Shown here piece by piece: positions 1,587 to 57,991 of a stretch of DNA of 64,000 nt. The notes under the pieces are model-generated. The model made no database searches. It saw only the letters and a program-made list of their open reading frames with translations, and was not told the origin of the DNA. Made by a program: the position numbers and the translations under genes. Each line of letters begins with the position of its first letter. Within the stretch, counting starts at the first letter, position 1. Origin of the DNA: Conchocele bisecta (taxonomy: Eukaryota; Mollusca; Bivalvia; Lucinida; Thyasiridae); NCBI GenBank assembly GCA_029237695.1, contig JAQRGA010000042.1:992001-1056000 (forward strand), given 5' to 3'.

Positions 1587-1796
1587 TTATTCAAATCCTG
1601 TGCCGCTCATACAGTCACGACCTGCTGCAGTACCCGATGAACATCTGCTGGATGCTGCTGATCCTGCATTACATCCTCCAACAGCTTCAGGACCTGCTGA
1701 ACATGAATTTGAGCCAGCTTGATTGCCGCTACAGCAGGCAGCACTGGAATATGAATATGGAAATATTTTTTGTATGCTTGGTCTATTATATTTCAT
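1587..1796 (-). CDS. candidate RiPP precursor peptide with CxxG decapeptide repeats
   Basis: This 69-residue peptide has a strong ribosome binding site (AGAGGAG, five bases before ATG). The first 20 residues look like a short leader (RPSIQKIFPYSYSSAA). The rest is almost only Gly, Ala, Ser, Thr, Asn and Cys. Cysteines sit at 21, 22, 32, 42, 52 and 62, so the last five are exactly ten residues apart. Each unit carries C-x-x-G: CCSG, CSAG, CNAG, CSSG, CMSG. It is the last gene of a minus-strand operon with a PqqD-like protein, two radical SAM/SPASM enzymes, an exporter and a signal peptidase. The likely role is substrate for radical SAM modification, perhaps thioether links from the Cys residues. 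Residues 18-20 (SAA) before Cys21 fit a signal-peptidase-type cleavage site. The modification and the bioactivity are inferred. Confidence 0.75.
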   Translation of the reverse strand: MKYNRPSIQKIFPYSYSSAACCSGNQAGSNSCSAGPEAVGGCNAGSAASSRCSSGTAAGRDCMSGTGFE

Positions 1797-3112: not shown

Positions 3113-4015
3113 CTAAATAACCTTCTCAATTTTCTTCCAAAATTCTCCGTTTAATGTTGCTTTTAGTTTATAACATGGAATTTTAATTGCCATATCAAAT
3201 GCATTATTAAATATTTTATGCACCATTTTTTTTTTATCCTCGACTTCAATCTTAGGCCAAAAAGATTCCCAAACCTGCTTGAAACTATCGAAAATTCTTT
3301 GAGAGCTTTGAGGATTTCTCATCGGGATTACTTCATCAACATCTGACTGTTCTAAAAAGAAGATTGCTTTTAGCGGAACTGAATATGACGTTCTAAACGT
3401 GCTTGATTTTTTACTCCATAGGTGATCACTCCATGTAGGCATAGGATGAACACAGTAGTTCTTATTTTTATCTTTAACAATTAGTGATATATCATCAGAT
3501 AGTGGTGTCCAATAAGATGGAAGTCTTATGCTGCATGTTGATTTTCCTGTACCACCATGGGCTGCAATTAATATGCCTTTACCATTTAATTCTGCCAAAG
3601 CAGCATGTGCAGGTCCGCCACCATTTTTTTCTGTATAGTATTTATAAATTGGTATTAATGACGTTGACATATTAATGAATTTAATTTCCTGATGGTCTAT
3701 GAAATCATTGTTTAGTTCTATAAAAGTTTCTGGTTTATGATTATGATACCATACTCTATATACTATGCCCTGCTTAAAATGATTCCAATCATCATGATTA
3801 TCTTCTAGCGGAAGTTGATTATCATTCTTCAGTGCTAAAAAAAATAATCTTCTATAGATGTTATTTACATCTGCGATATTCTCTTTCAGCTGCATTATTT
3901 TAGAAAAATCTTTAAGCCATGGTGCCATTGTTTCGGTAGCTTTAAATTCCCATGTTTGACCATCACTTAAAGCAAGAGTGTATCTTTTTTCATTCCCTGA
4001 AAATTGTTTTAGCAT
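3113..4015 (-). CDS. HPr-kinase-like P-loop protein (ScmC-like)
   Basis: The 300-residue product has a Walker A motif at residues 154-160 (GGTGKST) and a following SDDISLIV segment at about 172-179, the pattern of HPr(Ser) kinase/phosphatase C-terminal domains. The first 130 residues are not similar to HPr kinase. Such proteins recur in RiPP and lasso-peptide clusters and in the SynChlorMet cassette (ScmC). Its neighbours are the ABC exporter upstream and the S26 peptidase downstream. It probably phosphorylates a peptide or protein, or acts as an ATP-dependent accessory; the substrate is not known. There is no other PTS gene in the window, which speaks against a role in sugar regulation. Confidence 0.72.
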   Translation of the reverse strand: MLKQFSGNEKRYTLALSDGQTWEFKATETMAPWLKDFSKIMQLKENIADVNNIYRRLFFLALKNDNQLPLEDNHDDWNHFKQGIVYRVWYHNHKPETFIELNNDFIDHQEIKFINMSTSLIPIYKYYTEKNGGGPAHAALAELNGKGILIAAHGGTGKSTCSIRLPSYWTPLSDDISLIVKDKNKNYCVHPMPTWSDHLWSKKSSTFRTSYSVPLKAIFFLEQSDVDEVIPMRNPQSSQRIFDSFKQVWESFWPKIEVEDKKKMVHKIFNNAFDMAIKIPCYKLKATLNGEFWKKIEKVI

Positions 4016-4121: not shown

Positions 4122-5918
4122 CTATCCATCAAAAAAAGTTTTATAATCATCATGTTTTAATAAATCATCGTGATAACCTATTAACGGGGTTTTATTTTCT
4201 CCTCTCAGGAATATTATCCTGTCTGCATTTTTAATTGTGCTTAGCCTATGAGCTATTGTAAACATAGTTTTATTTTTGACTATTTTCGGTAAAAGATTAT
4301 AAATAGAGTTTTCAGTTACATTATCCAGTGATGCTGTAGGTTCATCTAATATTAGAATATCAGGTCTTTTGACAAGAGATCTTGCAATAGATAGACGCTG
4401 TCTTTGACCTTCTGATAAATTGTCGGCTCCTTCTGCTAAAATAGTATCATATTTTTCTGGTAATTTAGTGATAAAATCATGGATATCAGCAATTTTTGCC
4501 GCAGCTATTACATCTTCCAGTCCAGCATCTGAATTTCCATATTTGATATTATCAATAATTGTTCCTGATAGGAGTTCTGTTTTTTGTGAAACATATCCAA
4601 TTCTATTTCGTAGAGATCTTACATTATAGTTAGAAATTTTTCTATCATCAATAAATATTTCTCCATTCTTCGGTTTATAAAATCTCATTATAAGGCTTAT
4701 AAGTGTGGTTTTTCCTATACCGCTCAATCCTATAATAGCCCAGTGTTCTCTAGGTTTTACCGTAAAGGAAATATTTGTTAATATAGGTTCCTGAGGATTA
4801 TAGGAAAAGGAAACATTTTTAAATTCAACTTTTCCATTTATATCATTAACTTTTAAGCCTGTTTCAGTATTTTCTTCAGGTGTAACTTCAAAAAGAGAAG
4901 CAAGTCTTTCAAGTCCTGCTCTTGTGTTTTGGAGTTGGCTTGTACTAGATGCTAAAAATCCCACAGGGCCATATACAAATCCAAGATAAGATTGGAATGC
5001 AAGAAGTGACCCTACGCTCCAGTCACCTTTAATGACCCAGTATGATCCAAAAGCAAGTACAAAAAACCTAGCAAGTGTTGGCAGCAGATTCATTACATTG
5101 CTGTTAAGACTACCCAATACCATATTTTCATTAGCGATTGTGTAGTTCTTTTTTATTTCAGTTACAATTGTATTTTCACTTCTCTTTTCATTTGAAAAGG
5201 TTTTAATAAGTGGAATTGATGAGATAAGTTCCTGAAATGCTGATTGATAATTGGCACTTCTTTCTCTGTTTCTATGACTCAATATATAAGTTCTTCTTGC
5301 AAAAAATATAGTCAGTATAAATGGGACAGGGAGAGTTATCATTATTGGAACTGCAATTCTCCATTCAAGATAGAATAAAAAATATATACCACCTATTAAT
5401 CTAGTTATCTGTATGAATATCTGAACAAATGTTCCTGAGATGAACCAGTTAACACAGCTTACGTCCGATGTGAGGCGTGACATAAGGTAGCCTTTATGGA
5501 TATTGTCAAAAAACATTTTTGGAAGGGAAAATACACGTTTTATCAATTTTTGCTGTAAATGGAGTGTGACTTCCTGTGTGAATCTTGTATTCAGAAACTG
5601 CCTTATCTGTCCAGCAATACTGTTTATTAGACCTATGGCAATTAAAAGTATTATTACCGGAGCAAGAAGTTTTAAATCTCTCTGTATAAGTACATGATCA
5701 ATTAAATATCTTGTAATCATTGGACCTGGAAAAGCAAGCAAAGAGGTAATTAATAATAAAACCATACTCACTAAACCGAGTTTCCATTGAGTAAATATAG
5801 ATGGGTATATATACTTAGCATTATCCCTAAATCGACCATATTTATGATTCGGTGAAATATGATCTTTAGGGAGTTTGCAGTTTAGTGCATTTTTAAGATG
5901 TACAAACCAATTATTCAT
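4122..5918 (-). CDS. ABC exporter, permease-ATPase half transporter
   Basis: This 598-residue protein has a cytosolic N-terminal tail of about 45 residues, a six-helix type-1 exporter domain to about residue 330, and an ATPase domain. Walker A is near residue 396-403 (GLSGIGKT), the signature is LSEGQRQR near 498 (Glu in place of the usual second Gly), and Walker B is ILILDEP. There is no N-terminal C39 peptidase domain, so leader removal needs another enzyme, for which the S26 peptidase of the operon is suited. The predicted role is export of the modified Cys-rich peptide across the inner membrane as a homodimer. A lipid or drug exporter cannot be excluded by sequence alone, but the position in the operon supports the peptide. 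Confidence 0.88.
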   Translation of the reverse strand: MNNWFVHLKNALNCKLPKDHISPNHKYGRFRDNAKYIYPSIFTQWKLGLVSMVLLLITSLLAFPGPMITRYLIDHVLIQRDLKLLAPVIILLIAIGLINSIAGQIRQFLNTRFTQEVTLHLQQKLIKRVFSLPKMFFDNIHKGYLMSRLTSDVSCVNWFISGTFVQIFIQITRLIGGIYFLFYLEWRIAVPIMITLPVPFILTIFFARRTYILSHRNRERSANYQSAFQELISSIPLIKTFSNEKRSENTIVTEIKKNYTIANENMVLGSLNSNVMNLLPTLARFFVLAFGSYWVIKGDWSVGSLLAFQSYLGFVYGPVGFLASSTSQLQNTRAGLERLASLFEVTPEENTETGLKVNDINGKVEFKNVSFSYNPQEPILTNISFTVKPREHWAIIGLSGIGKTTLISLIMRFYKPKNGEIFIDDRKISNYNVRSLRNRIGYVSQKTELLSGTIIDNIKYGNSDAGLEDVIAAAKIADIHDFITKLPEKYDTILAEGADNLSEGQRQRLSIARSLVKRPDILILDEPTASLDNVTENSIYNLLPKIVKNKTMFTIAHRLSTIKNADRIIFLRGENKTPLIGYHDDLLKHDDYKTFFDG

Positions 5919-6109: not shown

Positions 6110-7255
6110 TCAAGTTTTCATTCTTTTCTCATATTCACTTCCTGGTCTTAATCTACTTTTTGGAAAAATACCAGCATTATAGGCTTCTTCGCAATACCAA
6201 AAAGGTGCCATAAGATCTTTATGTCTGTAATAATTCATTGCGATACATGCTCCCAAACACATATTTTTCATGATACAGTCTCTGCAAATACCCTTTAGAT
6301 TACTTGGTAATTCTTTTCTTATTGTATCTAAAACAGTACTATCATTCCATACATCAGCCAGTTTGTCTTCAGATGCAGGCCCAAAGCAAAGTTCAGGTAC
6401 AGTTTCACCAATGCCGCAAAGTGCATATTTTCCGCTGCCTAAAACTCCCATGATACCTAAAATACCGCATCGGCCACTTGATTTTGAAAATATTTTACTT
6501 AATGGACGAAATGCTGAAGTATGAGAATAAACTACTCTGATTTTTGAATTTGGTTCTAATTCACTTTCAACCCATTTACCTAATTCGACAAGTTTTTCAA
6601 TAGAGATAGTTTCTCCGGCATCATGCATCTGTTCGCCTCTAGCAGTTGGCATAACAAGGTTAAATTTGACAGATTCAGCTCCTATTGTCTCTGCAAGTCT
6701 AACTACAGATTCCATTTGGTTTACATTATTATTCATAATAGACATGATGAATTGTGGGCGTAATCCTACTTTTATAAGATTTCTAGCACCATTTAAAGCG
6801 GCTTCAAAACATCCATCGACACCTCTAACCCATTCATGAGTCTCTGCATCTGAACCATCTAAACTTATTGAGACAAAAGGGTTATTACATTTTATTATTT
6901 TTTCAACAATCTCAGGTGTGCATTCTACGCCGTTTGTTTCGATAGTTAAGCGAAGTCCCTGTTCTGCAATATGATCAATTATTTTGCCGATATCAGGATG
7001 TATCAATGGCTCTCCGCCAGTAAGTTTCACACCGCTCATTCCAAGCTCTTTACCCTGTTTTATAATATCTTTAAAAAGTTTAAAGTCCAATGTTGGAAAT
7101 TTCGGTGTTCCTTTTTCAAATTTCGGTGCTAACCAACAGTGTCTACACCTTAAATTACAGCCTTCAGTTAGATAAAAGTATATAGTATTTAAGTAATATC
7201 CGCATTCTGGCAGAGGTATCTGTTTTATATTTTTTTTACTTTTTTGATCAGTCAT
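6110..7255 (-). CDS. radical SAM/SPASM peptide-modifying enzyme, ScmF-like
   Basis: The 381-residue protein carries the radical SAM cluster motif CNLRCRHC (Cys33, Cys37, Cys40), preceded by LNTIYFYLTEG and followed by WLAPKF. The SAM-binding GGEP motif is near residue 100. The C-terminal SPASM-type region has many cysteines for auxiliary Fe-S clusters (CGIL, CGIG, CRDC, CLGAC). The N-terminal wording is, from memory, very like ScmF of the SynChlorMet cassette. It lies directly after the ScmE-like enzyme and the PqqD-like gene. The expected job is one of two radical modifications of the CxxG-repeat peptide, for example carbon-sulfur links; the actual chemistry is unknown. Confidence 0.85.
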   Translation of the reverse strand: MTDQKSKKNIKQIPLPECGYYLNTIYFYLTEGCNLRCRHCWLAPKFEKGTPKFPTLDFKLFKDIIKQGKELGMSGVKLTGGEPLIHPDIGKIIDHIAEQGLRLTIETNGVECTPEIVEKIIKCNNPFVSISLDGSDAETHEWVRGVDGCFEAALNGARNLIKVGLRPQFIMSIMNNNVNQMESVVRLAETIGAESVKFNLVMPTARGEQMHDAGETISIEKLVELGKWVESELEPNSKIRVVYSHTSAFRPLSKIFSKSSGRCGILGIMGVLGSGKYALCGIGETVPELCFGPASEDKLADVWNDSTVLDTIRKELPSNLKGICRDCIMKNMCLGACIAMNYYRHKDLMAPFWYCEEAYNAGIFPKSRLRPGSEYEKRMKT

Positions 7256-7441: not shown

Positions 7442-8542
7442 TTAACAGCCTTTAGGTAATTTACCTCCAGCTTCAAGAAATGTTCTATAACATGAATCTG
7501 GTGATGGTTTATTTTCATCGCCTGTGAGAGTATATGCGAGGGCAGGACACCCGCCTCTGCAATATGCTGTATAATTACACTCACTGCAAAATTTAAACTT
7601 TTTCAAAGGCGTATCTCTTCGATCACGCAAACGTATTAATTCTGTATGGTTATGCCAGACATCTTTTAATCTGTCTTTATTGATTCTTCCTAATTCCATA
7701 TGAGGTATCTGTGAACATGGAATCATAATTCCATCTGCTCTAACTGCCATTTTACTAAAAACACCACCACAGCTCCTTAAATAGCCGCATCCTGGTGTTT
7801 CTTTTATCCCGGCTTTAATTGTATCTTCTATTTCTTTCCAGTGCTTACCACTGGCAAGAGGTCCTGCCTGGGCATTAATTCTTCCGTTATATTTTTTATT
7901 TAATTCAAAAAGTTTGGCTACTACAAAAGAATATTCATCTGCATTCAATTCTGTGTCATCACTATTTTGACGACACAGTCCAAGAAATGATGCTGAATTA
8001 GTAGAAAAAGATTGTAATCCTACATCTTCAAGTAGAAGTTCAGCGACTTCATCAAGATCCTGATAGTTGTGTTTGTGAATTGTAACTCTAGTTGTTGCAG
8101 GAATTTTATATTTGAGAAGAAGGTTTAGTCCTCTTAATGCGGCAATAAATGAACCTTTGCCCCTTGCAATATCATGAGATTCGGGACCTGGACCATCAAT
8201 TGAAACCTGTATACTGTCACATCTTCCTGTTGATTTTATAAACTCCAGAATTTCTTCTGTAATTAAACCACCGTTGCTTAGCATAGAAAATCTCATTCTA
8301 TTAGCTACTACTCCACTGATTAGTTCTTTTATATCTTTTCTGTAGAATGGCTCCCCGCCAGAAAGACATATATCAAGCACAGCACATTCTTTGAGCTCTC
8401 TAAAAAATTTAAGCCATTCTTCTGTAGGGAGATCAGTATTGGTTTCTCCTTCACTACTGAAGTGTGAGCAGTAGGTACATCGAAGATTACACTTTGATGT
8501 GATATTTATATCAACACTCTTTGGTGTGTTCATTACACGCAT
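7442..8542 (-). CDS. radical SAM/SPASM peptide-modifying enzyme, ScmE-like
   Basis: This 366-residue protein has CNLRCTYC (Cys18, Cys22, Cys25) close to its N-terminus, then SGGEPFYR near residue 60-67 and a SPASM region at about 250-345 with CGYLRSCGG, PCSQ, CSEC and CRGGCPA. The start MRVMNTPKSVDINIT and the SHFSSEGETNTDLPTEEW segment are typical of ScmE-type proteins as I recall them. Together with the ScmF-like gene it makes a pair of enzymes for one substrate, as in the SynChlorMet cassettes. The gap to the PqqD-like gene is 90 bases. Target residues on the peptide are not known. Confidence 0.85.
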   Translation of the reverse strand: MRVMNTPKSVDINITSKCNLRCTYCSHFSSEGETNTDLPTEEWLKFFRELKECAVLDICLSGGEPFYRKDIKELISGVVANRMRFSMLSNGGLITEEILEFIKSTGRCDSIQVSIDGPGPESHDIARGKGSFIAALRGLNLLLKYKIPATTRVTIHKHNYQDLDEVAELLLEDVGLQSFSTNSASFLGLCRQNSDDTELNADEYSFVVAKLFELNKKYNGRINAQAGPLASGKHWKEIEDTIKAGIKETPGCGYLRSCGGVFSKMAVRADGIMIPCSQIPHMELGRINKDRLKDVWHNHTELIRLRDRRDTPLKKFKFCSECNYTAYCRGGCPALAYTLTGDENKPSPDSCYRTFLEAGGKLPKGC

Positions 8543-8632: not shown

Positions 8633-8920
8633 TTAATCCTTTTCGTATCCAATAAGCCCTCTATTTTTTAGATCAGTTACAAAATCTTCAATATGTACGG
8701 TAGAATCTTTTGGAATTCCATTTTCACAAGCTTCTTCTAACTCACTTAATATTTCTTTCAATGAATGTTTTCCATCCATTTTTTTCCAAATAAAAGCACT
8801 TACAGGGTCTAATCCAAAAGTTTCATTTGCATCTGGATCAAATAAAACAGCCCAGTCATCAAATTCTTCTCTGAAAACTACCATTGGGTTAACTGTTGGA
8901 ATATTAGTTTTTAAGTCCAT
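8633..8920 (-). CDS. PqqD-like RiPP recognition element, ScmD-like
   Basis: I place the start at 8920, where ATG is preceded by AAGGAG with eight bases between; an in-frame upstream ATG at 8962 has no such site. The product then has 95 residues. It shows the PqqD winged-helix pattern (DDWAVLFDPDANETFGLDPVSAF in two blocks, then FIWKKMDGKHSLKEI and a C-terminal helix). PqqD-type proteins bind the leader of the precursor and present it to the radical SAM enzyme. It sits immediately before the two radical SAM genes, as ScmD does. It has no cysteine except one near residue 73, so it is a binding protein rather than an enzyme. Confidence 0.82.
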   Translation of the reverse strand: MDLKTNIPTVNPMVVFREEFDDWAVLFDPDANETFGLDPVSAFIWKKMDGKHSLKEILSELEEACENGIPKDSTVHIEDFVTDLKNRGLIGYEKD

Positions 8921-9030
8921 TTTTCTACTCCTTAAATTTTGTTTTTTTATTTTATAAATCATTGATTTGGTATTTTTTTCTATGTATTTAGCATATTCTG
9001 ACTATTTTAGAATGTCAAGTATAAAATTTA

Positions 9031-10272
9031 TCATTCCTTTAACCAGTTTAAAATCTGTATATAATTAATGGATTTATTTTCTAAATTATTATTTTTCTTT
9101 AAAAAATATAAAATAAAAGTTTTTTTAAAATAATTTTTTAGAATAAATAGAGCTCTTGGAATATAATAAAAATATTTCTTATTTGAGTTTTCATCTAAAC
9201 CATAAGTTCTACAAATTACATGAGTAGAAAAAAAACCATAAAACAGATATATAATTTTTTCTTTTAATGAACGATTTTGAAATTCACTGATAATGTTATC
9301 TTCAACACTATGTGCATTTGTATTTACGACAGATAATAGATGATTTTCTATTATTTCCATTATCTGATAATTTTCAGTAGTGAACTTATTGATCTCATCA
9401 TAAAAATCATTTAATTTTGTATTAAAAATATTTTCTACCGAAGAGATAATAATAAAAAGAATTTTATTAATGTTCCAAATTTTAGCCCTATCTTTTACAA
9501 TATTCCAATTGATATTTTCTTTACTAATTAAGTTATGAATGTCTAACATTTTAATTAGACACTGTTTGAATTTATCCTGAACTATTTCCATACATAAGTG
9601 AAGAATAATATCTTCTACAGACATAGTATAGCCTATTTTTCCTTTAATATCTTTTTGTTCAGCTCTATTCCATATATTATCTGTATTGATGCGAACTTCC
9701 GGAGTTCCCGGTAGTTTGACAAATTTTAATTCACAGTGAAGTTCAATTGCACGCTTATTTGACATTATAAGTTCTGGTAGATGTTTTTCATGTTTTAGCC
9801 AGGTTTCAGGTTCAAATTTACGATTGAACCTATACCCTAGCTCTTGAATTAATTCTGCTACATGCATAGCATCATCTTTTTTGACAAGCAGATCTATGTC
9901 ATGCATCGTTCTTGTTACAGGATTATTATAATATTTATCTCCTAAATAAACACCTTTTATCAGGATTACATCCAAATTTTGCTCATTAGTAATACTTAAA
10001 ATTTTATTTAGATCATGTGCTCCCTTCATGTACTCTGCAGAAGCTGCATGATAATATATTTTTAAATTATTTAATATATTTTTAGGAACAAGTTCAGCAT
10101 GCTGTCTAGTTTTAGAATAAAATAGTGGACATACTTCAAAAAAAGTTAAGAAATTAAATACTTTATACCAATCATTTTCTTTTATACGTGATAAAAAATT
10201 ATAGATTTGTTTATTGTCTTCAGTCACAAGTATGGAACAAATTATTTTTTTGAAGATTAAATCTTTTGGCAT
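9031..10272 (-). CDS. nucleotidyltransferase-fold protein (NTP_transf_5 type), first gene of the RiPP operon
   Basis: The 413-residue protein has the pattern LIKGVYL at residues 104-110 and HDIDLLV at 124-130, with Asp125 and Asp127 as likely metal ligands; this is the family often annotated as uncharacterised nucleotidyltransferase and found beside HPr-kinase-like proteins in RiPP clusters. The C-terminal third is helical, rich in Asn, Lys and Ile, and unassigned. The ribosome site CAGAGGAAGAGT precedes ATG. It reads away from the XRE-PAS gene over a shared 150-base control region. It may transfer a nucleotide to the peptide or to another cluster protein; this has to be shown. Confidence 0.78.
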   Translation of the reverse strand: MPKDLIFKKIICSILVTEDNKQIYNFLSRIKENDWYKVFNFLTFFEVCPLFYSKTRQHAELVPKNILNNLKIYYHAASAEYMKGAHDLNKILSITNEQNLDVILIKGVYLGDKYYNNPVTRTMHDIDLLVKKDDAMHVAELIQELGYRFNRKFEPETWLKHEKHLPELIMSNKRAIELHCELKFVKLPGTPEVRINTDNIWNRAEQKDIKGKIGYTMSVEDIILHLCMEIVQDKFKQCLIKMLDIHNLISKENINWNIVKDRAKIWNINKILFIIISSVENIFNTKLNDFYDEINKFTTENYQIMEIIENHLLSVVNTNAHSVEDNIISEFQNRSLKEKIIYLFYGFFSTHVICRTYGLDENSNKKYFYYIPRALFILKNYFKKTFILYFLKKNNNLENKSINYIQILNWLKE

Positions 10273-10410: not shown

Positions 10411-10426
10411 AAAATTAAAAGATGTG

Positions 10427-11170
10427 ATGATTGAAATTATGAAAGCTAATATCAAAAAAATTATAGAATTTAGAAAGTTAAAATCTATATCAATAAACAA
10501 ATTTGCTGAACTTTTGGGTATTTCTACTCGTACTATTTATAATTGGGAAAATAAAAAATCAAATCCAGGAAAAACAGATTTGATGGCTATTGCTCATTTA
10601 TTAGATATTAAATTAAATGATATATCTGATTACAGAGAGACAAGATTTTTTTACGAAAAACCTAATTTACAAAAAGGTGATGCTCTTAAAGAAAGTGCTA
10701 ATTATCTTAAATATATAATTAATAATATGCCGTGCGGTGAGTATGCTAAATTAGAACCTATTCTTGATTCCTATAATGATATATATAAATTAAATAGAGA
10801 AAATATTAGACTTAAAGAAAGAGTTTTTAAGCTTAATTTTATTCTTGATTCTATAGATTCTGCTGTATATGTTAAAAATTCTAAGCAAATTGTGACATAT
10901 GTGAATCAAAAGTTTATGAATATACTGTCTGAAAAATTTATCGAAGGAGAGATAATCGGACATAAATTTTCTGATATATTACCTATAAATGAAATAAAAC
11001 CTATTATTAGTTTAGAAAAAGAGGTTTTTAATGGCAATTTTATTTACAATAAATCCATAAAATTTCCATTTTGCGATCAAAGTAAAATGTATGCTATATC
11101 TATAGTTCCAAATTTTTCAAAAAATTGTGTCAATGAAATTCTTATAACACTTATCCCTCTACCATGTTGA
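10427..11170 (+). CDS. XRE-family regulator with PAS domain
   Basis: The first 65 residues form a Cro/CI-type helix-turn-helix (SINKFAELLGISTRTIYNWE). After a helical linker, residues about 140-247 read as a PAS domain (LDSIDSAVYVKNSKQIVTYV, then GHKFSDILP). The start is ATG at 10427, or 10439; neither has a Shine-Dalgarno, and a GTG at 10424 is also possible. Being divergent from the RiPP operon and next to a duplicated 15-base motif, it is the best candidate for a local regulator that senses a small molecule or redox state through the PAS domain. The C-terminus has no enzyme or dimer motif I can name. Confidence 0.75.
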   Translation: MIEIMKANIKKIIEFRKLKSISINKFAELLGISTRTIYNWENKKSNPGKTDLMAIAHLLDIKLNDISDYRETRFFYEKPNLQKGDALKESANYLKYIINNMPCGEYAKLEPILDSYNDIYKLNRENIRLKERVFKLNFILDSIDSAVYVKNSKQIVTYVNQKFMNILSEKFIEGEIIGHKFSDILPINEIKPIISLEKEVFNGNFIYNKSIKFPFCDQSKMYAISIVPNFSKNCVNEILITLIPLPC

Positions 11171-11657
11171 ATAAAACAGTTCTTAACTTTTTATTTTTAA
11201 TCGTTTTATAAGTATTTCCTTCATTTTTATAATCCGTACATTTATTTTAATTATGCCCATATAATAATTTATCTACAACTTAAAGTCAATTTTTACTTTA
11301 TATCTATAATTTATCAAAAATTAGCTGTAAACGATTTATGGCAATTGCAGTCTGATCTGCTAATGATTGAGAGAAATCATATTCTTCAGGATTTTAAAAT
11401 AGTAATTTATTAATAAGTTTAAGATTAATTATTACAATTTTAGATTCACCAATTTTCAACCAATTTTTTTGAGTATATAGCCAATTGGAATGATTTAAGA
11501 AAATACATAAACAATTAAAAGAAAAACCTGCTGACAATGATATTATTTTTTTTGGCGATGCTGTACATCCTTAATTACTAGTTTTTAGTTTTTATAAGAA
11601 AAAAGTCCATTCCGTGTTTATTTAAATGAGGAGAGTTTGTCTGCATGAGCAATGATT
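11171..11657. other. gene-less region with an IS630-type remnant
   Basis: No intact gene is present in these 487 bases. The one readable piece is the transposase remnant at 11498-11574, listed separately. The rest is AT-rich and I see no structured RNA. Confidence 0.45.
11498..11574 (+). pseudogene. IS630-family transposase remnant
   Basis: A 25-codon stretch reads KKIHKQLKEKPADNDIIFFG and then DAVHP before a stop. The end resembles the DAVHP block around a catalytic Asp of the IS630/Tc1-type DDE transposase. No flanking transposase sequence or terminal repeats are visible, so it is a deep remnant. The assignment rests on a short motif recalled from the family. Confidence 0.4.
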
Positions 11658-12749
11658 TTATTTGTCAGTGAGGGGATTAGGCAGGCTTTTATAAATATAA
11701 TCTGTAATATCAGCGAAATAACCAAATAGTATTTCCTTTTTATCAATAATCCTAACATTGAAATGTGTTTTTAATATTCTTAATCCTTTTTTCGGATGGT
11801 TATATTTGAATATTGTCGGCTTTTTGTGATTTGCCTGATTTACATAATATAACATTCTTTTATGATCTTCTTTATCAATATATTTACACCATAGTTTTGT
11901 GTCTTTTCTTAGGTCGGATTCTGTCAAGGCTAAAACTTCATATACACCTCTTGAAATAAATACATATTCATTTTTATTCAATTTTGCAGAAAAATAACAT
12001 GTTTCAGGGATTTCATTTAGTGCTAATGCCATAATTTTAATTCTATAATTAGCCTGTTCTATTATTTGAAGATCTGATTTATCTACTAAATGCCCTATCA
12101 AATATTCGATACCATCATATTTATATGTCCTTACTCTGAGTCCATATAGGTGTTTTTTTATTTTTATATTATTTACTGCAATTTTATTTATTTCTGCTTT
12201 AGCTTCTGTATATCTAATTTTTATTCTTGCATCTAAGGGGATTAATGTATTGAAAAAGTAATTTATATTTTCTTTTGAAAGATTAAAATGCTGATAAAAT
12301 CTTTCTGACGCGAGAATTAATATAAAACCCTTATTTGTTTTCATCCTCAAATATAGTAAACTTGGACTTTTTAAAAATGCATATTGATAATAATTAAGCT
12401 GATCCTGTAGATAGTCATTTTCTTTTAATATCGTATTATGCAATGATTTTATCTCTTTAAGATAAGATTTATCTTCTTCTTCAAAATTATATTTATTTAA
12501 TATATTATTCAATTCTATTTTTCGCGTGTTGAGTGAAAAACTGTTTTGAAAGTCATTGAGTTTTGATATTTCCTGTACTGGTACATCTAATATTATAGCC
12601 AAAATTCTGATGTCGTTATGCGTAGGAGTAACTTCACCTTTTTCCCATCTCCAGTAAGTCGAAGGATTAATATTGCAAATTTCACATATTTTTTTTATTT
12701 TTATTTTTTTTGCTTTTCTGATTTTTTTAGCAACAATGTGATAGAACAT
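11658..12749 (-). CDS. second XRE-family regulator with PAS-like domains
   Basis: The 363-residue product begins with a helix-turn-helix (residues about 6-60, CEICNINPSTYWRWEKG). It has a helical linker with LKEIKSLHNTIL near 105-115. A first PAS-like region follows at about 125-225 and a second at about 245-355, ending in FGYFADITDYIY, the usual PAS/PAC end. It is organised like the 10427 gene but longer, so the two are probably distant paralogs. A GGGAT ribosome site lies six bases before ATG. It is divergent from ygeW with 252 bases between and may regulate the purine-catabolism genes; this is only suggested by position. Confidence 0.72.
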   Translation of the reverse strand: MFYHIVAKKIRKAKKIKIKKICEICNINPSTYWRWEKGEVTPTHNDIRILAIILDVPVQEISKLNDFQNSFSLNTRKIELNNILNKYNFEEEDKSYLKEIKSLHNTILKENDYLQDQLNYYQYAFLKSPSLLYLRMKTNKGFILILASERFYQHFNLSKENINYFFNTLIPLDARIKIRYTEAKAEINKIAVNNIKIKKHLYGLRVRTYKYDGIEYLIGHLVDKSDLQIIEQANYRIKIMALALNEIPETCYFSAKLNKNEYVFISRGVYEVLALTESDLRKDTKLWCKYIDKEDHKRMLYYVNQANHKKPTIFKYNHPKKGLRILKTHFNVRIIDKKEILFGYFADITDYIYKSLPNPLTDK

Positions 12750-13001
12750 TTAAATCCCTATTAATTTATTGAATTAGCTGAATAATTTTTAATCTATCAC
12801 CAGTATTATGATATTAAATAGCTCAATTGTCAATAAATAAAATAATAATATGCAATTTGCAATGAAAATATTGATGATTTTTCCTATCTATTAATATGGG
12901 ATTTAGTTAAATTGTTTAATTTAATATTCAATCAAAAAATAATTTATTTGCCTAATCAGGTATTTAATAACTAAGAAAAAATTTAAGTGAGAGAATTGAA
13001 G

Positions 13002-14198
13002 ATGGATAGAATCGGTTTGAACGAAATGATAAAAGAGTTGTCAAAGAAAAGAACTAATAATATGTACTTGAATGATTTTTTTCATACATGGCAGAAAACA
13101 GATGATGAAATACAGGCAACTTACCTCGTAGCAGATCTTCTCAGAGGAATGAGAGAGAATAATATTTCAACTAAAATATTTGAAAGCGGATTGGGTATTT
13201 CTTTATTTAGAGATAATTCTACAAGAACTAGATTCAGTTATGCAAGTGCATGTAATTTGCTTGGTTTGGCTGTTCAGGACTTAGATGAAGGAAAATCTCA
13301 GGTTGCCCATGGTGAAACAGTCCGTGAAACAGCTAATATGATTTCTTTTATGGCAGACGTTATCGGTATTCGTGATGATATGTATATTGGAAAAGGTTAC
13401 ACATATATGAAAGAAGTTGCTGAATCAGTTTATCAGGGACATCTTGACGGCGTACTCGAGCAGAGACCTACACTTGTTAACCTGCAGTGTGATATTGACC
13501 ATCCAACTCAATCTATGTCAGACGCTCTTCATATTATTAATCACTTTGGTGGAATCGAAAATCTTAAGGGCAAAAAAATTGCTATGACATGGGCATATTC
13601 GCCTTCATATGGAAAACCTTTGTCAGTTCCTCAGGGTATAGTTGGTTTATTAACTCGTTTTGGAATGGATGTTTCATTAGCGCATCCTGAAGGTTATGAA
13701 ATAATGCCTGAAGTTGAAGATGTAGCACGTGTGAACAGTACAAGGTGCGGTGGAACTTTTACTAAAACTAATAATATGGCCGATGCATTTAAAGATGCTG
13801 ATATCGTTTATCCTAAAAGCTGGGCTCCTTTTGCTGCAATGGAAAAAAGAACAGAGTTTTACGGTAATGGCGATACAGACGGTATTAATAGGCTTGAAAA
13901 AGACTTACTAGCTCAAAATGCTAATCATAAAGATTGGGAATGCACTGAAGAGTTAATGAAAACAACTAAAGAAGGTAAAGCTCTTTATATGCATTGTCTT
14001 CCTGCTGATATTACAGGCGTAAGCTGTAAAGAGGGTGAAGTTGAAGCATCTGTATTTGAAAGATATAGAATACCTCTCTACAAAGAAGCCAGTTATAAAC
14101 CTTATATTATTGCTGCTATGATTTTCTTGAGCAAGATTAAAAATCCTTCAGAAAAATTAATAGAAATGGTAAAAAATGATATTAAAAGGATATTATAA
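13002..14198 (+). CDS. ygeW: knotted carbamoyltransferase YgeW
   Basis: From ATG at 13002 (GAGAG ribosome-type site; an in-frame GTG lies at 12987) the product has 398 residues. It has the carbamoyl-phosphate site FRDNSTRTRF near residue 70, HGETVRETANMI, CDIDHPTQSM, WAYSPSYGKPLSVPQG and HCLPAD near 330, all characteristic of YgeW. YgeW is an ornithine/aspartate transcarbamoylase relative tied to anaerobic purine (urate) breakdown, where it handles a ureido intermediate and frees carbamoyl phosphate. It is followed by ygfK after 90 bases and leads an island with ygeY and arcC. Confidence 0.93.
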   Translation: MDRIGLNEMIKELSKKRTNNMYLNDFFHTWQKTDDEIQATYLVADLLRGMRENNISTKIFESGLGISLFRDNSTRTRFSYASACNLLGLAVQDLDEGKSQVAHGETVRETANMISFMADVIGIRDDMYIGKGYTYMKEVAESVYQGHLDGVLEQRPTLVNLQCDIDHPTQSMSDALHIINHFGGIENLKGKKIAMTWAYSPSYGKPLSVPQGIVGLLTRFGMDVSLAHPEGYEIMPEVEDVARVNSTRCGGTFTKTNNMADAFKDADIVYPKSWAPFAAMEKRTEFYGNGDTDGINRLEKDLLAQNANHKDWECTEELMKTTKEGKALYMHCLPADITGVSCKEGEVEASVFERYRIPLYKEASYKPYIIAAMIFLSKIKNPSEKLIEMVKNDIKRIL

Positions 14199-14288
14199 TT
14201 TATAGCTATTCTTTGCTTTTGTCTGTTTTCTAATTATATATAAAAATATAAAATTTATTAATCGCTTACTTTTGAAGGAATCTATCTG

Positions 14289-17200
14289 ATGTCTGATAAA
14301 TTTATGCCACTTAGTATGGAAGCCCTTACACATTGGGTTTTTGAAGAACTAGAGAAAAAAAACTCAATTTTTGGTATTCCTAAAGATCTTTTTTTTACTC
14401 CTCAACCTTCTGACAAATTTTCATTGAATATATACGGTTCAAAACTTGATACTCCTTTTGGTTTAGCGGCTGGTCCACATACTCAAATGGCACAAAATAT
14501 TATTGTTTCATGGTTATGTGGTGGTCGTTTTATTGAATTAAAAACTGTCCAGACACTCGATGAGCTGGAAGTATCAAAACCTTGTATTGATATTCTTGAT
14601 GTTGGTTATAATGTTGAATGGTCTCAGGAATTAACACTTACACAGTCTATTGACGAGTATGTTAGAGCTTGGGTTATTATCCATGCATTACATAAGAAGT
14701 TTGGTTTTATAGATGATAAACCAGGTATTATTTTTAGTACCAGTGTTGGGTATAATATGGAAGGTATTTTGCAGGATAATATGCAAAACTTTTTGAAAAA
14801 AATTGTTAACTCAGCTGATATGGTGGAAAAATATACTGAAATAGTTGCTAAATATTGTCCTGAAGTAAAAAATATCGAAATACCTGCTCAATTGTCTAAT
14901 AATGTCACCCTTTCAACTATGCACGGATGTCCTCCTGATGAAATAGGAAAAATTGCTTCTTATTTAATACAGGAATGGGGTTTTCATACTAATGTGAAGT
15001 TGAACCCTACACTGCTTGGTTCTGAAACTTTGAGAGGAATCTTAAATAAGGAGCTTGGTTTTCGTGAAATTACAGTACCTGATATAGCTTTTGAACATGA
15101 TTTGAAATATCCTGATGCACTACTTCTTTTACGAGACCTTCAGGCTAAAGCTGATAAAAAAGGTGTAACTTTTGGAGTCAAACTTTCTAATACACTTGAA
15201 GTTGAAAACCATAGAGATATTTTCAAAAAAGAAGAAAAAATGATGTACCTTTCAGGGCGTCCATTACAGGCTGTTACTGTTAATCTTGCAAAAAAACTTT
15301 CGATTGAGTTTAACGGACAGCTATTAATGTCATATGCAGGTGGAGCAGACTGCTTTAATATTGCAGAACTTCTTTATTCAGGAATGAAAACTATTACTGT
15401 ATGTTCAGATGTATTACGTCCTGGTGGCTATACAAGGATGTTGCAGTACATAGAAAATACTGTCAAAGCTTATTCTGATGTATCTGCAAAAGACACTGAT
15501 GATTATATCTGCAAAACTGCAAAAAATTTTACAGGATATAAAGCGTTGTCAAATATTACAGAGAAAACAGAATTAGTTAAAGCTTCTGCACTCTTAAATC
15601 TTCAAGAATATGCTAATTATGTATTAAGCGATCCTTTATTGCTTAGAGATACTTTTGAAAGAAAACATACTAAAACATCTAGAGAGCTTGGACTTTTTGA
15701 CTGCATTAAAGCCCCATGTACTGATGAATGTCCTATTAGTCAAAAAGCTGCTGAATATATTGAATGTGTAGATAATAAGGATATTCAAAAAGCTGCTGAA
15801 TTGATTCGGGAAGATAACCCAATTCCTAATATTCTCGGACGTGCCTGTAATCATCAGTGTGAAACGACATGCACAAGAACGCACTATGATGAACCTATTG
15901 CCATTCGTGAATTGAAACGCTATATCATGGACAACGGTGCTATTCCTACTTTTGAAAAAGAAGCAGATAAAGATATTAATGTTGCAGTTATCGGTGCAGG
16001 ACCATGTGGCTTATCTACAGCTTATTTCTTATTGCAGAAAGGCTATTCTATAACTATATTTGAGGAAAAATCAACACCGGCAGGAATGGTAAATGAAACA
16101 ATACCTATTTACAGAGCTATTCCTTCTTCTATATCCAGTGATATTGATGTAATCAAAGAACTTGGTGTTAAAATTGAATACGGCAAAAAAGTTGGTACTG
16201 ATATTACTGTCTCCAATTTAAAATCACAAGGTTTTAAATATATTGTTATTGCTGCCGGTGCACAAAAAGGTATGGCTCTTGGAATTAAAGGTGAAGATAA
16301 AAAAGGCGTAATAGATGGTATTGAGTTTCTCCGAGGAGCTAGAAAAAATAGAGCCATTGATCTTGGAACATCAATTGCAGTTATCGGTGCCGGTGATGTT
16401 GCAATGGACTGTGGCAGAGTTGCAAACCGCTTAACAGGCGGCAAAGTTACTGTTGTATATCGACGTACTATTGAAGAAATGCCTGCTCATAAAGAAGAAC
16501 TTGATGGATTGCGTGAAGAAGGCATTGAAATTAAAGAATTATCTTCTCCAAAAGAAGTTATATCTGAGAATGGTAGAATCAAAGCACTGAGATGTGCAAA
16601 AATGCGTTTAGGTGAACCTGATGATTCAGGAAGAAGAAGACCTGTTGAAATACCCGGTGAAGAATTTGATATAGAACTTGATAATCTAATTATTGCTATA
16701 GGACAGCAACCTGACTTTGATTTTTTTGATGGTAATGCCATTGAATTAAATAGAAAAGGTTATATAAATGTTGATCCTCAAACTATGTCTACTTCTACTA
16801 AAAATATTTTTGCTGGCGGAGATGCCATTGAGAATGGTCCTCTAACTATAGTAAAAGCTTGTGATGATGGCAAAAAAATTGCTGCATCTATCGAATATAT
16901 AGAAACAGGTAGTATTATTAATGACAGTTTGAGTATTGATGAAGATGTTGATTATTTTGAAATACTCAAGAAAAAATCTTATAGAGAATTCAGAGTAGAA
17001 GTACCTGAACTGCCTTTGGAAAAGAGAGATGGATTTGATGAAGTTATTCAAACTCTTTCTGATGCGGATGCTGTAAAAGAAGCAGCCCGTTGCTTAAAAT
17101 GCCATACCATTTGCAGTACCTGTACAACAGTATGTCCAAATAGAGCAATATTCACTTATAGGACAATTCCTATGAGTTTAGACTTGCCAGTGTTTAGGAT

Positions 17201-17648
17201 TGACAATAAGAAATTGAATGTTATTGGTTCTGAGATATTTAAATTAGAACAAAAATATCAAACAGCGATATTTACTGCATTTTGCAATGAATGTGCAAAT
17301 TGCACTTCTTTTTGTCCGGCAGGTGGAAGTCCATATAAGGATAAACCTCGTTTTTATACTGATCAAATAGAATTTGATGGTCAGGATAATAATGCATTCA
17401 TGCTCTTTAATAATTCTATTATCGGTAAATTTAATGATGAAATTTTCAAATTAACAGTTTCTGGTTCTACCTTATCCTGTAGCTGTAATATGTATGAAAT
17501 TAATCTTAATAGAGATAATTTTAATATGCTGTCAGAAGAAGAAGTTTTAACGGAATCTTCAAATACAGAGTCACTTAAAGCCTTTGCAATCATGTATGCT
17601 TTGTATGTGGGTGTTAAAACATCAAAACCTGGAATGCCTATTAATTAG
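14289..17648 (+). CDS. ygfK: YgfK, multi-domain Fe-S flavoprotein (annotated putative selenate reductase)
   Basis: The 1119-residue protein starts after a GAAGGAA site. It has a dihydroorotate-dehydrogenase-like N-terminal half (HGCPPDEIG near 220; SYAGGAD near 355). Then come Fe-S cysteines near 472-520 (CTDECP, CNHQCETTC). A GltD-type FAD/NADPH region follows, with VIGAGPCGLS near 565 and VIGAGDVAMDCGR near 698. C-terminal ferredoxin-like clusters lie near 934 (CLKCHTICSTC) and 999 (CNECANCTSFCPAG). The old name comes from E. coli; recent work places it in anaerobic urate reduction. Here it lies between ygeW and the PLP enzyme gene and is followed by a strong hairpin terminator. Confidence 0.92.
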   Translation: MSDKFMPLSMEALTHWVFEELEKKNSIFGIPKDLFFTPQPSDKFSLNIYGSKLDTPFGLAAGPHTQMAQNIIVSWLCGGRFIELKTVQTLDELEVSKPCIDILDVGYNVEWSQELTLTQSIDEYVRAWVIIHALHKKFGFIDDKPGIIFSTSVGYNMEGILQDNMQNFLKKIVNSADMVEKYTEIVAKYCPEVKNIEIPAQLSNNVTLSTMHGCPPDEIGKIASYLIQEWGFHTNVKLNPTLLGSETLRGILNKELGFREITVPDIAFEHDLKYPDALLLLRDLQAKADKKGVTFGVKLSNTLEVENHRDIFKKEEKMMYLSGRPLQAVTVNLAKKLSIEFNGQLLMSYAGGADCFNIAELLYSGMKTITVCSDVLRPGGYTRMLQYIENTVKAYSDVSAKDTDDYICKTAKNFTGYKALSNITEKTELVKASALLNLQEYANYVLSDPLLLRDTFERKHTKTSRELGLFDCIKAPCTDECPISQKAAEYIECVDNKDIQKAAELIREDNPIPNILGRACNHQCETTCTRTHYDEPIAIRELKRYIMDNGAIPTFEKEADKDINVAVIGAGPCGLSTAYFLLQKGYSITIFEEKSTPAGMVNETIPIYRAIPSSISSDIDVIKELGVKIEYGKKVGTDITVSNLKSQGFKYIVIAAGAQKGMALGIKGEDKKGVIDGIEFLRGARKNRAIDLGTSIAVIGAGDVAMDCGRVANRLTGGKVTVVYRRTIEEMPAHKEELDGLREEGIEIKELSSPKEVISENGRIKALRCAKMRLGEPDDSGRRRPVEIPGEEFDIELDNLIIAIGQQPDFDFFDGNAIELNRKGYINVDPQTMSTSTKNIFAGGDAIENGPLTIVKACDDGKKIAASIEYIETGSIINDSLSIDEDVDYFEILKKKSYREFRVEVPELPLEKRDGFDEVIQTLSDADAVKEAARCLKCHTICSTCTTVCPNRAIFTYRTIPMSLDLPVFRIDNKKLNVIGSEIFKLEQKYQTAIFTAFCNECANCTSFCPAGGSPYKDKPRFYTDQIEFDGQDNNAFMLFNNSIIGKFNDEIFKLTVSGSTLSCSCNMYEINLNRDNFNMLSEEEVLTESSNTESLKAFAIMYALYVGVKTSKPGMPIN

Positions 17649-17660
17649 TTATAGTTAATG

Positions 17661-17700
17661 AAATAGGAGTTCAGGTTGTAGCTTGCACTCCTATTTTATT
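17661..17700 (+). terminator. rho-independent terminator after ygfK
   Basis: A perfect 10-base stem AAATAGGAGT (17661-17670) and ACTCCTATTT (17687-17696), with a 16-base loop and TTATT after it, lies 12 bases past the ygfK stop codon. It separates ygeW-ygfK from the downstream half of the island. Confidence 0.75.
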
Positions 17701-18111
17701 GCCCCAGTATTTAAAAGATCTTGCATAAAATGATTTATAAATTATTATATATTAAAATAAGTTAATGACTATCAGTAAAATCGCCTTTAAAATATATTAA
17801 TATTCACCATATGAAAATTAATTTTTCGGCATAGAATATGAATATAGGCATTCATCAACAATCAGAATAAGTTTAGGTGAGAATTAGTAATTTGCCCCGC
17901 TTTACTAAAATAAAATATTGCTAAATGGAAGATAGCATCAAGATTATTTCATTATGAGATATTTAAATTATTTTTTTTAAAGATCATTCTTTGTCAGATC
18001 CATAGAAGTTTATACATTAGCAATATCAAGAAAATATCGACAAAATATTAATTAAAGATAATAATAAATTTTGAATAACATTTAACACACGAATTTTTTG
18101 GAGGAAGAACA
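17701..18111. other. gene-less gap upstream of the PLP-enzyme gene
   Basis: No open frame or RNA gene was seen in these 411 AT-rich bases. It must hold the promoter of the downstream genes. A strong GGAGGAAG ribosome site lies at the right end, just before ATG at 18112. Confidence 0.5.
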
Positions 18112-19602
18112 ATGGCTAAACTAGGTTTAGAAGATCATGTTATAAACGAACAGGTATTAAATCAAACTGTATCAAGATTCAAAGAAAGAAGTATCCAATT
18201 ACCTACACTATCAGAATTAAGTGATCCATCAACTATTTCAGCAGAAGTAAAAAAGCAGTTACTTGATGTAGATCCGGGTGAAGCACATCCATTAAATCTC
18301 TATAGAATTAACTGGTATAATGATCCTGAAAACAAAACCTTCAGAGATGTTCCTTATTATTTTGAAGTCCCTAAATCAATTACAGGAATTGATGCAAAAA
18401 TATTAGTTATGTCAGGTGCATTTTTTCCAATGGTTAACTGTCATAAAGTACTTGCTGCTTATGGCTGCTTAGCACCAAGATTAATAACAGGTCAATTTGA
18501 CCCTACAGAACATAAGGCTATTTGGCCTTCAACTGGTAACTATTGCAGAGGCGGTGTAGCTGTTTCTAAAATTATGGACTGCCATGGTGTAGCTATTCTT
18601 CCAGAAGAAATGAGTGAAGAACGTTTTAACTGGTTAGAAGAATGGACAATGGATCCAGCTAATGATATATTTAAAACATATGGTTGCGAAAGTAATGTTA
18701 AAGAAATTTATGACATGTGTAAAGAATTAGACAAAGATGATAAAAATATTATTTTTAATCAGTTTTGTGAATTTGGTAATACGGTAATACATTATCATTG
18801 CACAGGTAAAGCTTTATCTAATGTTTTTGAAGACATTAAAAAATCCAATCCTAATTCTAAACTCAGAGCATTTACATCTGCTACTGGTTCTGCTGGTACA
18901 ATTTCAGCTGGCGATTATCTAAAAGATAATTATAGGGATGTTAATATTGTTGCAGTAGAAGCTCTTGAATGTGCAACCCTTCTTTATAATGGTTTTGGTG
19001 GACATAATATCCAGGGTATTGGTGACAAACATGTACCATATGTACACAATATAATGAATAATGATAATGTTGCTGCTATTTCTGATTCTTCAACAGACTC
19101 ATTAAATCTTCTCTTTAATACAGAAGAAGGTAAGAAATATCTTAAAGAAGTAAAAGGTCTTTCAGATACTGAGATAAAAAATCTTTCACTACTTGGACTA
19201 TCATCTATCGGTAATATGCTCGCTGCAATTAAAACAGCTAAATATTATAACATGGGAAAAGATGATGTTATTTTAACTGTTGCAACTGATGCAGCTATAA
19301 TGTACAAAACTGAAATGCCAAAGCAGAAGAAAAAATATTTTAATGGTTCATTCGGTGAATTTGATGCTGCAGAAACTTTTGGACAGCATTTAAATGCTGT
19401 TACTGTTGATCATTTTGAAGAATTAACTAAAATGAGCAAAGAAAGAATTTTCAACTTAGGATATTATACATGGGTTGAACAACAAGGTGTTGAAATTGAG
19501 GACTTTGTTGCACGTAAAGATCAGAGCTTCTGGAGAGATCTTAAAAAATATATTCCAATTTGGGACGAATTAATTGTTAAGTTCAACGAAAAAGCTAAAT
19601 AA
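18112..19602 (+). CDS. PLP-dependent enzyme (fold type II) of the purine-catabolism island
   Basis: The 496-residue protein has features of the tryptophan synthase beta/cysteine synthase superfamily. There is a likely PLP lysine at about residue 111 (VNCHKVLAAYG), as in the SxK pattern of fold type II. A glycine-rich phosphate loop SATGSAGTISAG lies near 256. SLLGLSSIGNMLAAIKTAKY follows near 360. It is about 100 residues longer than DpaL/YgeX (diaminopropionate ammonia-lyase), which occupies this place in other ygeW-ygfK-ygeY clusters. It probably performs the ammonia-releasing or sulfur/amine elimination step of the same pathway, but its substrate is not shown by the sequence. GGAGGAAG is its ribosome site. 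Confidence 0.78.
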   Translation: MAKLGLEDHVINEQVLNQTVSRFKERSIQLPTLSELSDPSTISAEVKKQLLDVDPGEAHPLNLYRINWYNDPENKTFRDVPYYFEVPKSITGIDAKILVMSGAFFPMVNCHKVLAAYGCLAPRLITGQFDPTEHKAIWPSTGNYCRGGVAVSKIMDCHGVAILPEEMSEERFNWLEEWTMDPANDIFKTYGCESNVKEIYDMCKELDKDDKNIIFNQFCEFGNTVIHYHCTGKALSNVFEDIKKSNPNSKLRAFTSATGSAGTISAGDYLKDNYRDVNIVAVEALECATLLYNGFGGHNIQGIGDKHVPYVHNIMNNDNVAAISDSSTDSLNLLFNTEEGKKYLKEVKGLSDTEIKNLSLLGLSSIGNMLAAIKTAKYYNMGKDDVILTVATDAAIMYKTEMPKQKKKYFNGSFGEFDAAETFGQHLNAVTVDHFEELTKMSKERIFNLGYYTWVEQQGVEIEDFVARKDQSFWRDLKKYIPIWDELIVKFNEKAK

Positions 19603-19617
19603 GTCTTTTTGAATAAT

Positions 19618-19694
19618 GCTGATTCATTGGAGCTATCCAAATAACAATCTACTAGAATCAGCAAACCTTAAAATAATATCCGTTTAAAACGGTT
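19618..19694. other. two inverted repeats between the PLP-enzyme gene and ygeY
   Basis: GCTGATTC at 19618-19625 pairs with GAATCAGC at 19655-19662 (long loop). A second, tight palindrome CCGTTTAAAACGG lies at about 19680-19692, flanked by AATAAT and ATTATT-like arms. They may act as an attenuator, an operator or an mRNA-processing site ahead of ygeY. Neither is followed by a convincing T run. Confidence 0.4.
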
Positions 19695-19736
19695 TAATTA
19701 TTTAAATTTTATATAAAGAATAAGAGGGGAATTATT

Positions 19737-20939: not shown

Positions 20940-20961
20940 TAAAATTTATGTACAACATATA

Positions 20962-20991
20962 AATAATGGGATGGCATGCCATCCCATTATT
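20962..20991. terminator. perfect 30-base palindrome between ygeY and arcC
   Basis: The two arms AATAATGGGATGGCA and TGCCATCCCATTATT meet with no spacer, giving a perfect 30-base palindrome. It is followed by ATTTAAATTT. It could fold as a strong hairpin, so it is probably a terminator or attenuator, active in both directions. Being perfectly symmetrical it could also be a protein-binding site. Confidence 0.65.
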
Positions 20992-21028
20992 ATTTAAATT
21001 TGAATTTTAATAATAATGGGGTAAAATC

Positions 21029-53557: not shown

Positions 53558-53667
53558 AAAAAAATATTAAAACAGAAGTAGAGAAGTCGGAAATTTACAT
53601 TATTTCTCATCAGGGACAGGACTATATTTCATTTACAAATATAAACATGGCGGAGATAGATTCATGA
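53554..53667 (+). CDS. 37-residue ORF, likely KilA-N-type gene remnant
   Basis: This frame begins at ATG 53554 (overlapping the hsdM stop as ATGA) and ends at TGA 53665-53667 (overlapping the hsdS start as ATGA). It reads [20 protein letters not shown], like the start of KilA-N/RhuM-type proteins that occur in type I RM operons of other bacteria. Nearly all of the parent gene would be deleted with the operon overlaps kept. It may now act only to couple translation of hsdM and hsdS. Confidence 0.5.
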
Positions 53668-57919: not shown

Positions 57920-57991
57920 GAATAATCTTAAATATAAAAAACTTAATAAATGAAATTATTATTGGAGCAATAAAATATAGGAATCAGCAGT

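Follow-up and report, generated by a model that had tools for sequence, protein, structure and literature searches.

Gene content and origin of the locus

The window, a stretch of 64,000 nucleotides from a contig of the Conchocele bisecta assembly, contains nine genes that all lie on the minus strand and run from position 10272 down to 1587, with intergenic gaps of 14 to 260 bases. The first encodes a nucleotidyltransferase (9031 to 10272; PF14907, E 5.3e-42) and is followed by ScmD (8633 to 8962; TIGR04248, 106.4 bits against a cut-off of 100; PF05402, E 6.7e-12), which is PqqD-like and a predicted RiPP recognition element (RRE); PqqD-like proteins are recognition elements. Two radical SAM/SPASM enzymes come next, ScmE (7442 to 8542; TIGR04250, 554.3 bits, cut-off 400) and ScmF (6110 to 7255; TIGR04251, 544.3 bits, cut-off 400), and then an MsbA-type ABC exporter in which a peptidase domain was not found (4122 to 5918), the HprK-related kinase ScmC (3113 to 4015; TIGR04249, 256.2 bits, cut-off 125), an archaeal-type signal peptidase I with SMFP and VHR motifs that is the probable leader peptidase (2253 to 2852; TIGR02228, 66.2 bits, cut-off 51.85), and a lipoprotein-like protein of 140 amino acids with no family match (1816 to 2238). 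The last gene (1587 to 1796) encodes a peptide of 69 amino acids that we take to be a divergent ScmA-type precursor, on the evidence of a relative of the same length with the same spacing and the same cassette.

The motif CxxxCxxC is kept in both radical enzymes, as CNLRCTYC in ScmE and CNLRCRHC in ScmF, and both have SPASM-type cysteines. ScmE exceeds the cut-off of the Pfam SPASM model and ScmF falls below it (18.8 vs 21.5), the cysteine pattern being present nonetheless. Among proteins of solved structure, the sactisynthase SkfB is closest to ScmE by sequence (E 8e-21), and for ScmF the best match is cytosylglucuronate decarboxylase, followed by PqqE, neither of which is a thioether maker. 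ScmE also matches the family of the ranthipeptide maturase PapB (E 1.9e-29) with 102.9 bits, below the cut-off of 340. The start of the cassette is flanked by two HTH_3 regulators (10424 to 12749), which are candidate controllers. A defence function was considered and set aside, three neighbours of the peptide gene having no PADLOC match.

The contig that holds the window carries two bacterial 16S genes. One of them shares 88% identity with its counterpart in G046, a genome drawn from the phylum of the Victivallales locus L001; against four other genomes, it gave a partial match of 76% in G074 and none in G001, G211 and G287. It is likely that the DNA comes from a bacterium with kin in the phylum of the Victivallales, either living with the larger organism or contaminating it. 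The contig (C895) is a bacterial one within an assembly of 1.89 Gb, in which contigs C676 and C998 match the bacterial 16S model too. Elsewhere in the window, positions 12987 to 21994 hold a row of genes for a carbamoyltransferase, an oxidoreductase of 1119 amino acids with pyridine-nucleotide-disulphide and iron-sulphur domains, a weak match to a PLP enzyme, an M20 peptidase-like hydrolase, and a member of the amino acid kinase family, which we take to resemble the yge-type cluster for purine degradation in anaerobic bacteria of the gut. Positions 51257 to 61204, a possible defence island, hold subunits that by eye resemble those of type I restriction-modification systems, with SIR2-like and HerA/DUF87 genes in between.

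The probable precursor gene and its repeat

The 69-residue peptide has cysteines at residues 21, 22, 32, 42, 52 and 62, that is, a series ten residues apart from Cys22 onwards with Cys21 added, just as the initial annotation had described. The same annotation placed CxxG units exactly ten residues apart, which is correct for cysteines 22 to 62 and not for the first step between units, given that the first unit (CCSG) begins at Cys21: the units start at residues 21, 32, 42, 52 and 62, so the steps in the CxxG register are 11, 10, 10 and 10. Identical steps separate the glycines of the units (residues 24, 35, 45, 55 and 65) as well as the alanines that follow them (27, 38, 48 and 58), the last unit having Phe instead. 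The core, residues 21 to 69 (1590 to 1736), can be written as five units of C-x-x-G-x-x-(A). Upstream of it, residues 3 to 8 (YNRPSI; 1773 to 1790) form a leader motif of the type [YW]xxPx[hydrophobic], the kind to which RRE binding is ascribed in lasso and LPP leaders (PMC13381572). The initial annotation had included neither this motif nor the kinase, the nucleotidyltransferase and the LPP-type leader peptidase of the cluster.

Five bases 5′ of the ATG lies the sequence AGAGGAG (1802 to 1808), a ribosome-binding site with a computed pairing of −9.0 kcal/mol with the 16S tail. It ranks second of 59 when set against the first starts of the 58 open reading frames (ORFs) of at least 100 amino acids, which may differ from the true starts, and by this measure the site belongs, as had been suggested, among the strongest of the region.

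Whether such a frame could be due to chance, or to a low-complexity structural repeat, has to be considered, as the peptide is of low complexity and only 69 amino acids long, and as an equally long ORF on the plus strand overlaps it. Shuffling of residues 19 to 69 argues against this explanation: at least five CxxG were obtained in 0.047% of 200,000 shuffles, and a chain of five cysteines ten apart in 0.003%, the latter for a period that was picked post hoc. Among the 341 ORFs of at least 30 amino acids in the window, this peptide is unique in having five CxxG, the runner-up having four, and it alone has more than two cysteines chained ten apart. The spacing, the frame and the context are also conserved in its closest noticed relative and in other genomes. 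Thus, chance is a very remote explanation, and we conclude that the ORF is real.

The closest relative that we noticed (L063, positions 2073 to 2282) encodes 69 amino acids, 33 of them identical to those of the window peptide, with the spacing 11-10-10-10, so the frame is kept in a close relative, as the initial annotation had expected. Between the two genes, 40 of 70 codons agree at position 1, 42 at position 2 and 31 at position 3, as one would expect for a coding frame. The neighbours of the L063 gene follow the order and strand of the window, namely signal peptidase, ScmC, ABC protein, ScmF, ScmE and ScmD. This cassette is without the 140-residue ORF, and no match to the nucleotidyltransferase was found on its contig of 9318 bases. 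The 140-residue protein also had no tblastn match (E 1e-4) across 36 loci of other cassettes.

Distribution of the peptide and its association with ScmE

A search with the window peptide as the single phmmer query found nothing, and a profile of five rows was therefore needed. With an E limit of 1, it retrieved 101 database proteins, and 74 of these also fall within E 1e-3; the proteins lie mostly on short contigs and are all annotated merely as "hypothetical protein"; one of them (P0020) is, by its letters, L001's own peptide. A search of genome contigs for ScmE yielded seven loci, one of which (L007) is remote, with 24% identity. In four of the seven (L001, L004, L005 and L006), a peptide with CxxG repeats adjoins the Scm genes. 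A 25-row profile detected the peptide in five of the six genomes behind L001 to L006, with none in that of L002; in that of L003, the peptide lies on a different contig from the ScmE locus. Similar predicted repeat peptides are encoded beside the same enzymes in several further bacterial groups.

We also collected 32 peptides from the genomes, hand-picked from ORF lists and including the window peptide, that of L063, and the near-alike peptides of L059 to L062; an evident chance frame in L005 (4671 to 5096) was excluded. Some of the loci are of interest in their own right. For instance, a single cassette in L075 (1470 to 3779) has four distinct ORFs for CxxG-repeat peptides on both strands, and a Chlorobium cassette in L005 (12911 to 14833) has two consecutive ScmC matches. 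The peptides of L059 to L062 combine four CxxG units with a long acidic tail rich in Pro and Ser, and the ScmE relatives in their genomes lie within longer open frames (492 to 929 amino acids); these peptides are perhaps a sister class.

The co-occurrence of the peptide and ScmE was surveyed in 585 genomes drawn evenly from two phyla, with thresholds of E 1e-80 for ScmE and E 1e-6 for the peptide profile. Among the 288 genomes of the phylum of L001, 10 have ScmE, with scores over the curated cut-off in five, and six have the peptide; the peptide occurs in 6/10 genomes with ScmE vs 0/278 others (Fisher p 2.8e-10). The 297 genomes of the phylum of L003 include 11 with ScmE, all over the cut-off, and eight with the peptide, four being shared, so the peptide is present in 4/11 genomes with ScmE vs 4/286 others (Fisher p 6.7e-5). 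Because the genomes are related and kin of some of the peptides are in the profile, these p values serve as a guide only. Considering the 21 ScmE-positive genomes together, 16 show the peptide, 10 by the profile and six by ORF inspection (G046, G287, G335, G361, G492 and G564). Neither the profile nor ORF inspection revealed it in the other five (G034, G144, G324, G415 and G584); for two of these, G034 and G144, ScmE scores under the cut-off and has no adjoining match to ScmD or ScmF.

Seen from the peptide, one or more of the eight other proteins of the window cassette has a relative nearby (tblastn, E 1e-4) in 13 of the 14 positive genomes, and around the peptide of G003 no such relative was found at this threshold. 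A relative of ScmE or ScmF occurs on the fetched stretch around the peptide in 10 of the 14, in three cases (G074, G101 and G270) at a distance of 13 to 16 kb on the same contig. Four of the eight peptide-positive genomes of the second phylum lack ScmE at E 1e-80 (G344, G365, G553 and G409). In G344 and G365, distant ScmE and ScmF with 32–39% identity adjoin the peptide; in G553, ScmC, the signal peptidase, and an ScmF truncated by the end of the contig are found near it; and in G409, on a short contig, there is a weak ScmC match alone. As for other genomes, the nucleotidyltransferase is the sole cassette match near the peptide of G450, and that of G239 has nearby matches to the signal peptidase, the ABC protein and the nucleotidyltransferase. 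The conserved frame, the repeat and the association with SynChlorMet (SCM) enzymes, all shown at the level of sequence, are the reasons for which we regard the peptide as a RiPP precursor, and it is almost certainly that of the adjoining SCM cassette.

Across the family, the repeat is less strict than in the window. The 136 CxxG steps of the 32 genome-side peptides comprise 59 of ten residues, 31 of eleven, 13 of nine and 33 of other lengths, and the 618 Cys-Cys steps of the 101 database peptides comprise 257 of ten and 133 of eleven, the rows in all these counts not being independent. The number of CxxG per genome-side peptide ranges from one to nine, the single-unit peptide (L064) having mainly CxxxG. 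It had been anticipated that homologues beside ScmE/ScmF-like genes would differ in unit number and share the ten-residue period; other unit numbers and a step of mainly ten residues are indeed found, but the period is not exact, and we have replaced the rule of exactly ten residues by a mode of ten. The position of Gly is more constant. It stands at +3 from 626 and at +4 from 50 of the 718 core cysteines of the database set, with 42 having neither, and these 676 of 718 compare with 37% expected when the other residues are shuffled; in the genome set of 200 cysteines, the corresponding numbers are 168, 23 and nine. The core motif of PapB-type ranthipeptides, CxxxD/E, is therefore not the pattern of these peptides. 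Ala is commonest at +6 after CxxG (348/626) and at +7 after CxxxG (36/50), and since an extra residue before Gly also shifts the downstream Ala, we consider Cys, Gly and Ala to be parts of one unit. We therefore write the unit of the family as C-x(2,3)-G-x-x-A plus a linker, with a step of about ten residues. A repeat-solenoid fold of the core was also considered and rejected: the AlphaFold model from an alignment of 25 rows, whose first sequence was P0036 rather than the window peptide, had a mean pLDDT of 45.7, with only a leader block (residues 11–20) at 82, and because of this low mean we claim no fold for the core.

The leader pattern [YW]xxPx[LIVFAM] is present in all 102 peptides formed by the 101 database relatives and the window peptide, a count that is partly due to selection because the search profile contained both leader and repeat. 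A looser pattern is found in 26 of the 32 genome-side peptides, and of the six misses, four are the peptides of L059 to L062, which read YEKPxS, and two are single ORFs of L075 and L092.

Related systems and proposed chemistry

The nearest named system is the SCM cassette of NCBIfam (TIGR04248–04251), with which the window shares ScmC, ScmD, ScmE and ScmF, all over cut-off, as well as a small precursor with a related leader. We had considered the precursor to be unnamed, which is ruled out by the existing NCBIfam model of ScmA (TIGR04252; 49 positions, cut-off 35 bits). This model, however, gives no match to the window peptide even at E 10. Four of ten genome-side peptides match it at E ≤10, the Chlorobium peptide of L005 best with 21.8 bits, and none exceeds 35 bits; 32 of the 101 database relatives match at E ≤1, the best at 8e-7 (an estimated 29 bits or so). 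Searched in genomes, it was found in 0/297 of one phylum, where the controls gave no match either, and in 1/61 of one class, under the cut-off. Its 49 positions appear too few for a whole repeat array. As the model misses the window peptide and no scanned relative was shown to be over the cut-off, the repeat class seems to be under-annotated. SynChlorMet and TIGR04248 to TIGR04252 are unmentioned in the open-licence PMC papers searched, so that, within this scope and despite the NCBIfam models, the SCM cassette is a named prediction rather than a studied system, and we found no published study on the chemistry of these repeat peptides.

A Cys-containing precursor adjoining a radical SAM/SPASM enzyme, the gene arrangement of sactipeptides, is present in the window. 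Streptosactin (GggA/GggB) offers a useful comparison. Its alpha-thioethers, installed by a single SPASM enzyme, join Cys25 to Ser28 and Cys31 to Gly34 according to PMC8172795, although Cys15 is printed in place of Cys25 in one passage, and PMC13361665 describes it as a pair of four-residue sactionine rings. The likeness would lie in four-residue rings that stand apart from one another, at C-x-x-G and C-x-x-S in streptosactin and, by prediction, at C-x-x-G in the window peptide. In contrast to the two rings and one radical enzyme of streptosactin, the window has five units (up to nine in relatives) and two radical enzymes; its leader peptidase is of another type, and a separate RRE, a nucleotidyltransferase and a kinase are present in addition.

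A different set of likenesses points to the linear polyphosphorylated peptides (LPP). In the accessible portion of PMC13381572, the leaders that discrete RREs bind, in lasso as well as LPP systems, carry [Y/W]xxP, an SpI-like peptidase helped by the RRE takes off the LPP leader, and LPP are restricted to Bacillota. The LPP gene set given there is present in the window by family name, but that portion does not describe radical SAM enzymes, of which the window has two, and from the LPP leader YxxPxVLxHQxIxFETxxS the window peptide has YxxPxI only. Paeninodin-type lasso peptides, as that portion presents them, share the [Y/W]xxP leader, the RRE, the kinase and the nucleotidyltransferase; neither a macrolactam cyclase nor a B2 peptidase was found among the nine cassette genes scanned.

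We propose that ScmD would bind the YxxPxI leader and present the core to the two radical enzymes. In each C-x-x-G, ScmE and ScmF would remove a hydrogen atom from the Gly alpha-carbon, which would then become bonded to the Cys sulphur. The outcome would be a row of separate four-residue sactionine rings similar to those of streptosactin, one per ten residues or so. ScmC may phosphorylate Ser or Thr and the nucleotidyltransferase may modify the peptide further, both in line with proposals for LPP and paeninodin-type peptides, while the leader would be removed by the signal-peptidase-like protein and the product exported by the ABC protein. Antagonism towards neighbours is our default guess for its role. 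Thioether or beta-carbon chemistry at the repeat peptide is plausible, and some thioether at the CxxG cysteines is probable. The full reading, in which ScmE and ScmF would form a Cys-to-Gly (i, i+3) alpha-thioether in each unit, is close to an even matter and is put forward tentatively. It rests on the alpha-thioethers of streptosactin, the likeness of ScmE to SkfB, the constancy of Gly at +3/+4 and the lack of a confidently predicted fold in the core; against it are the best solved match of ScmF, which is not a thioether maker, and the conservation of Ala as well.

This conservation of Ala, in step with Gly, would instead be accounted for if Cys were linked to the Ala three residues after Gly, with Gly forming a turn, and the match of ScmE to the PapB family, below cut-off as it is, would suit a ranthipeptide-like link to the beta carbon of a following residue. 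Given that Asp or Glu is not common at +4 after Cys and that Ala varies much more than Gly at +3/+4, we consider links elsewhere on the same precursor unlikely. We would judge in the same way the possibility that the radical enzymes epimerise, hydroxylate or cut the peptide and leave its cysteines free, disulfide-bonded or metal-binding. ScmE and ScmF do also resemble PqqE and enzymes of heme pathways, and two enzymes may mean two tasks, but a tight Cys-bearing C-x(2,3)-G-x-x-A unit beside SPASM enzymes would be in the style of thioether makers. That the peptide is in essence an LPP-like one in which the Cys repeat is secondary would explain the shared signal peptidase I, RRE, HprK-like kinase, NTP transferase, MsbA-like exporter and YxxP leader. 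The co-occurrence analysis in the accessible portion of PMC13381572, however, includes no radical SAM enzyme, and of the LPP leader motif only the first part is found in the window peptide, which makes this alternative quite improbable in our view.

Returning to the Cys-to-Gly thioether, its broadest form, which we regard as doubtful, would be a widespread class of RiPPs. Its two radical SAM enzymes would move along the C-x(2,3)-G-x-x-A repeat, the period of which is about ten residues, and make a single small ring of Cys and Gly in each unit, up to nine separate rings in all; the peptide would also be phosphorylated and decorated by a kinase and a nucleotidyltransferase of the lasso and LPP type. 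If true, such a class would combine the sactipeptide and phosphopeptide routes. In any case, the ScmE and ScmF families gain a testable substrate, a repeat rule and a recognition motif, and the natural series of peptides with up to nine units may serve as a ruler for the processivity and register of radical SAM enzymes.
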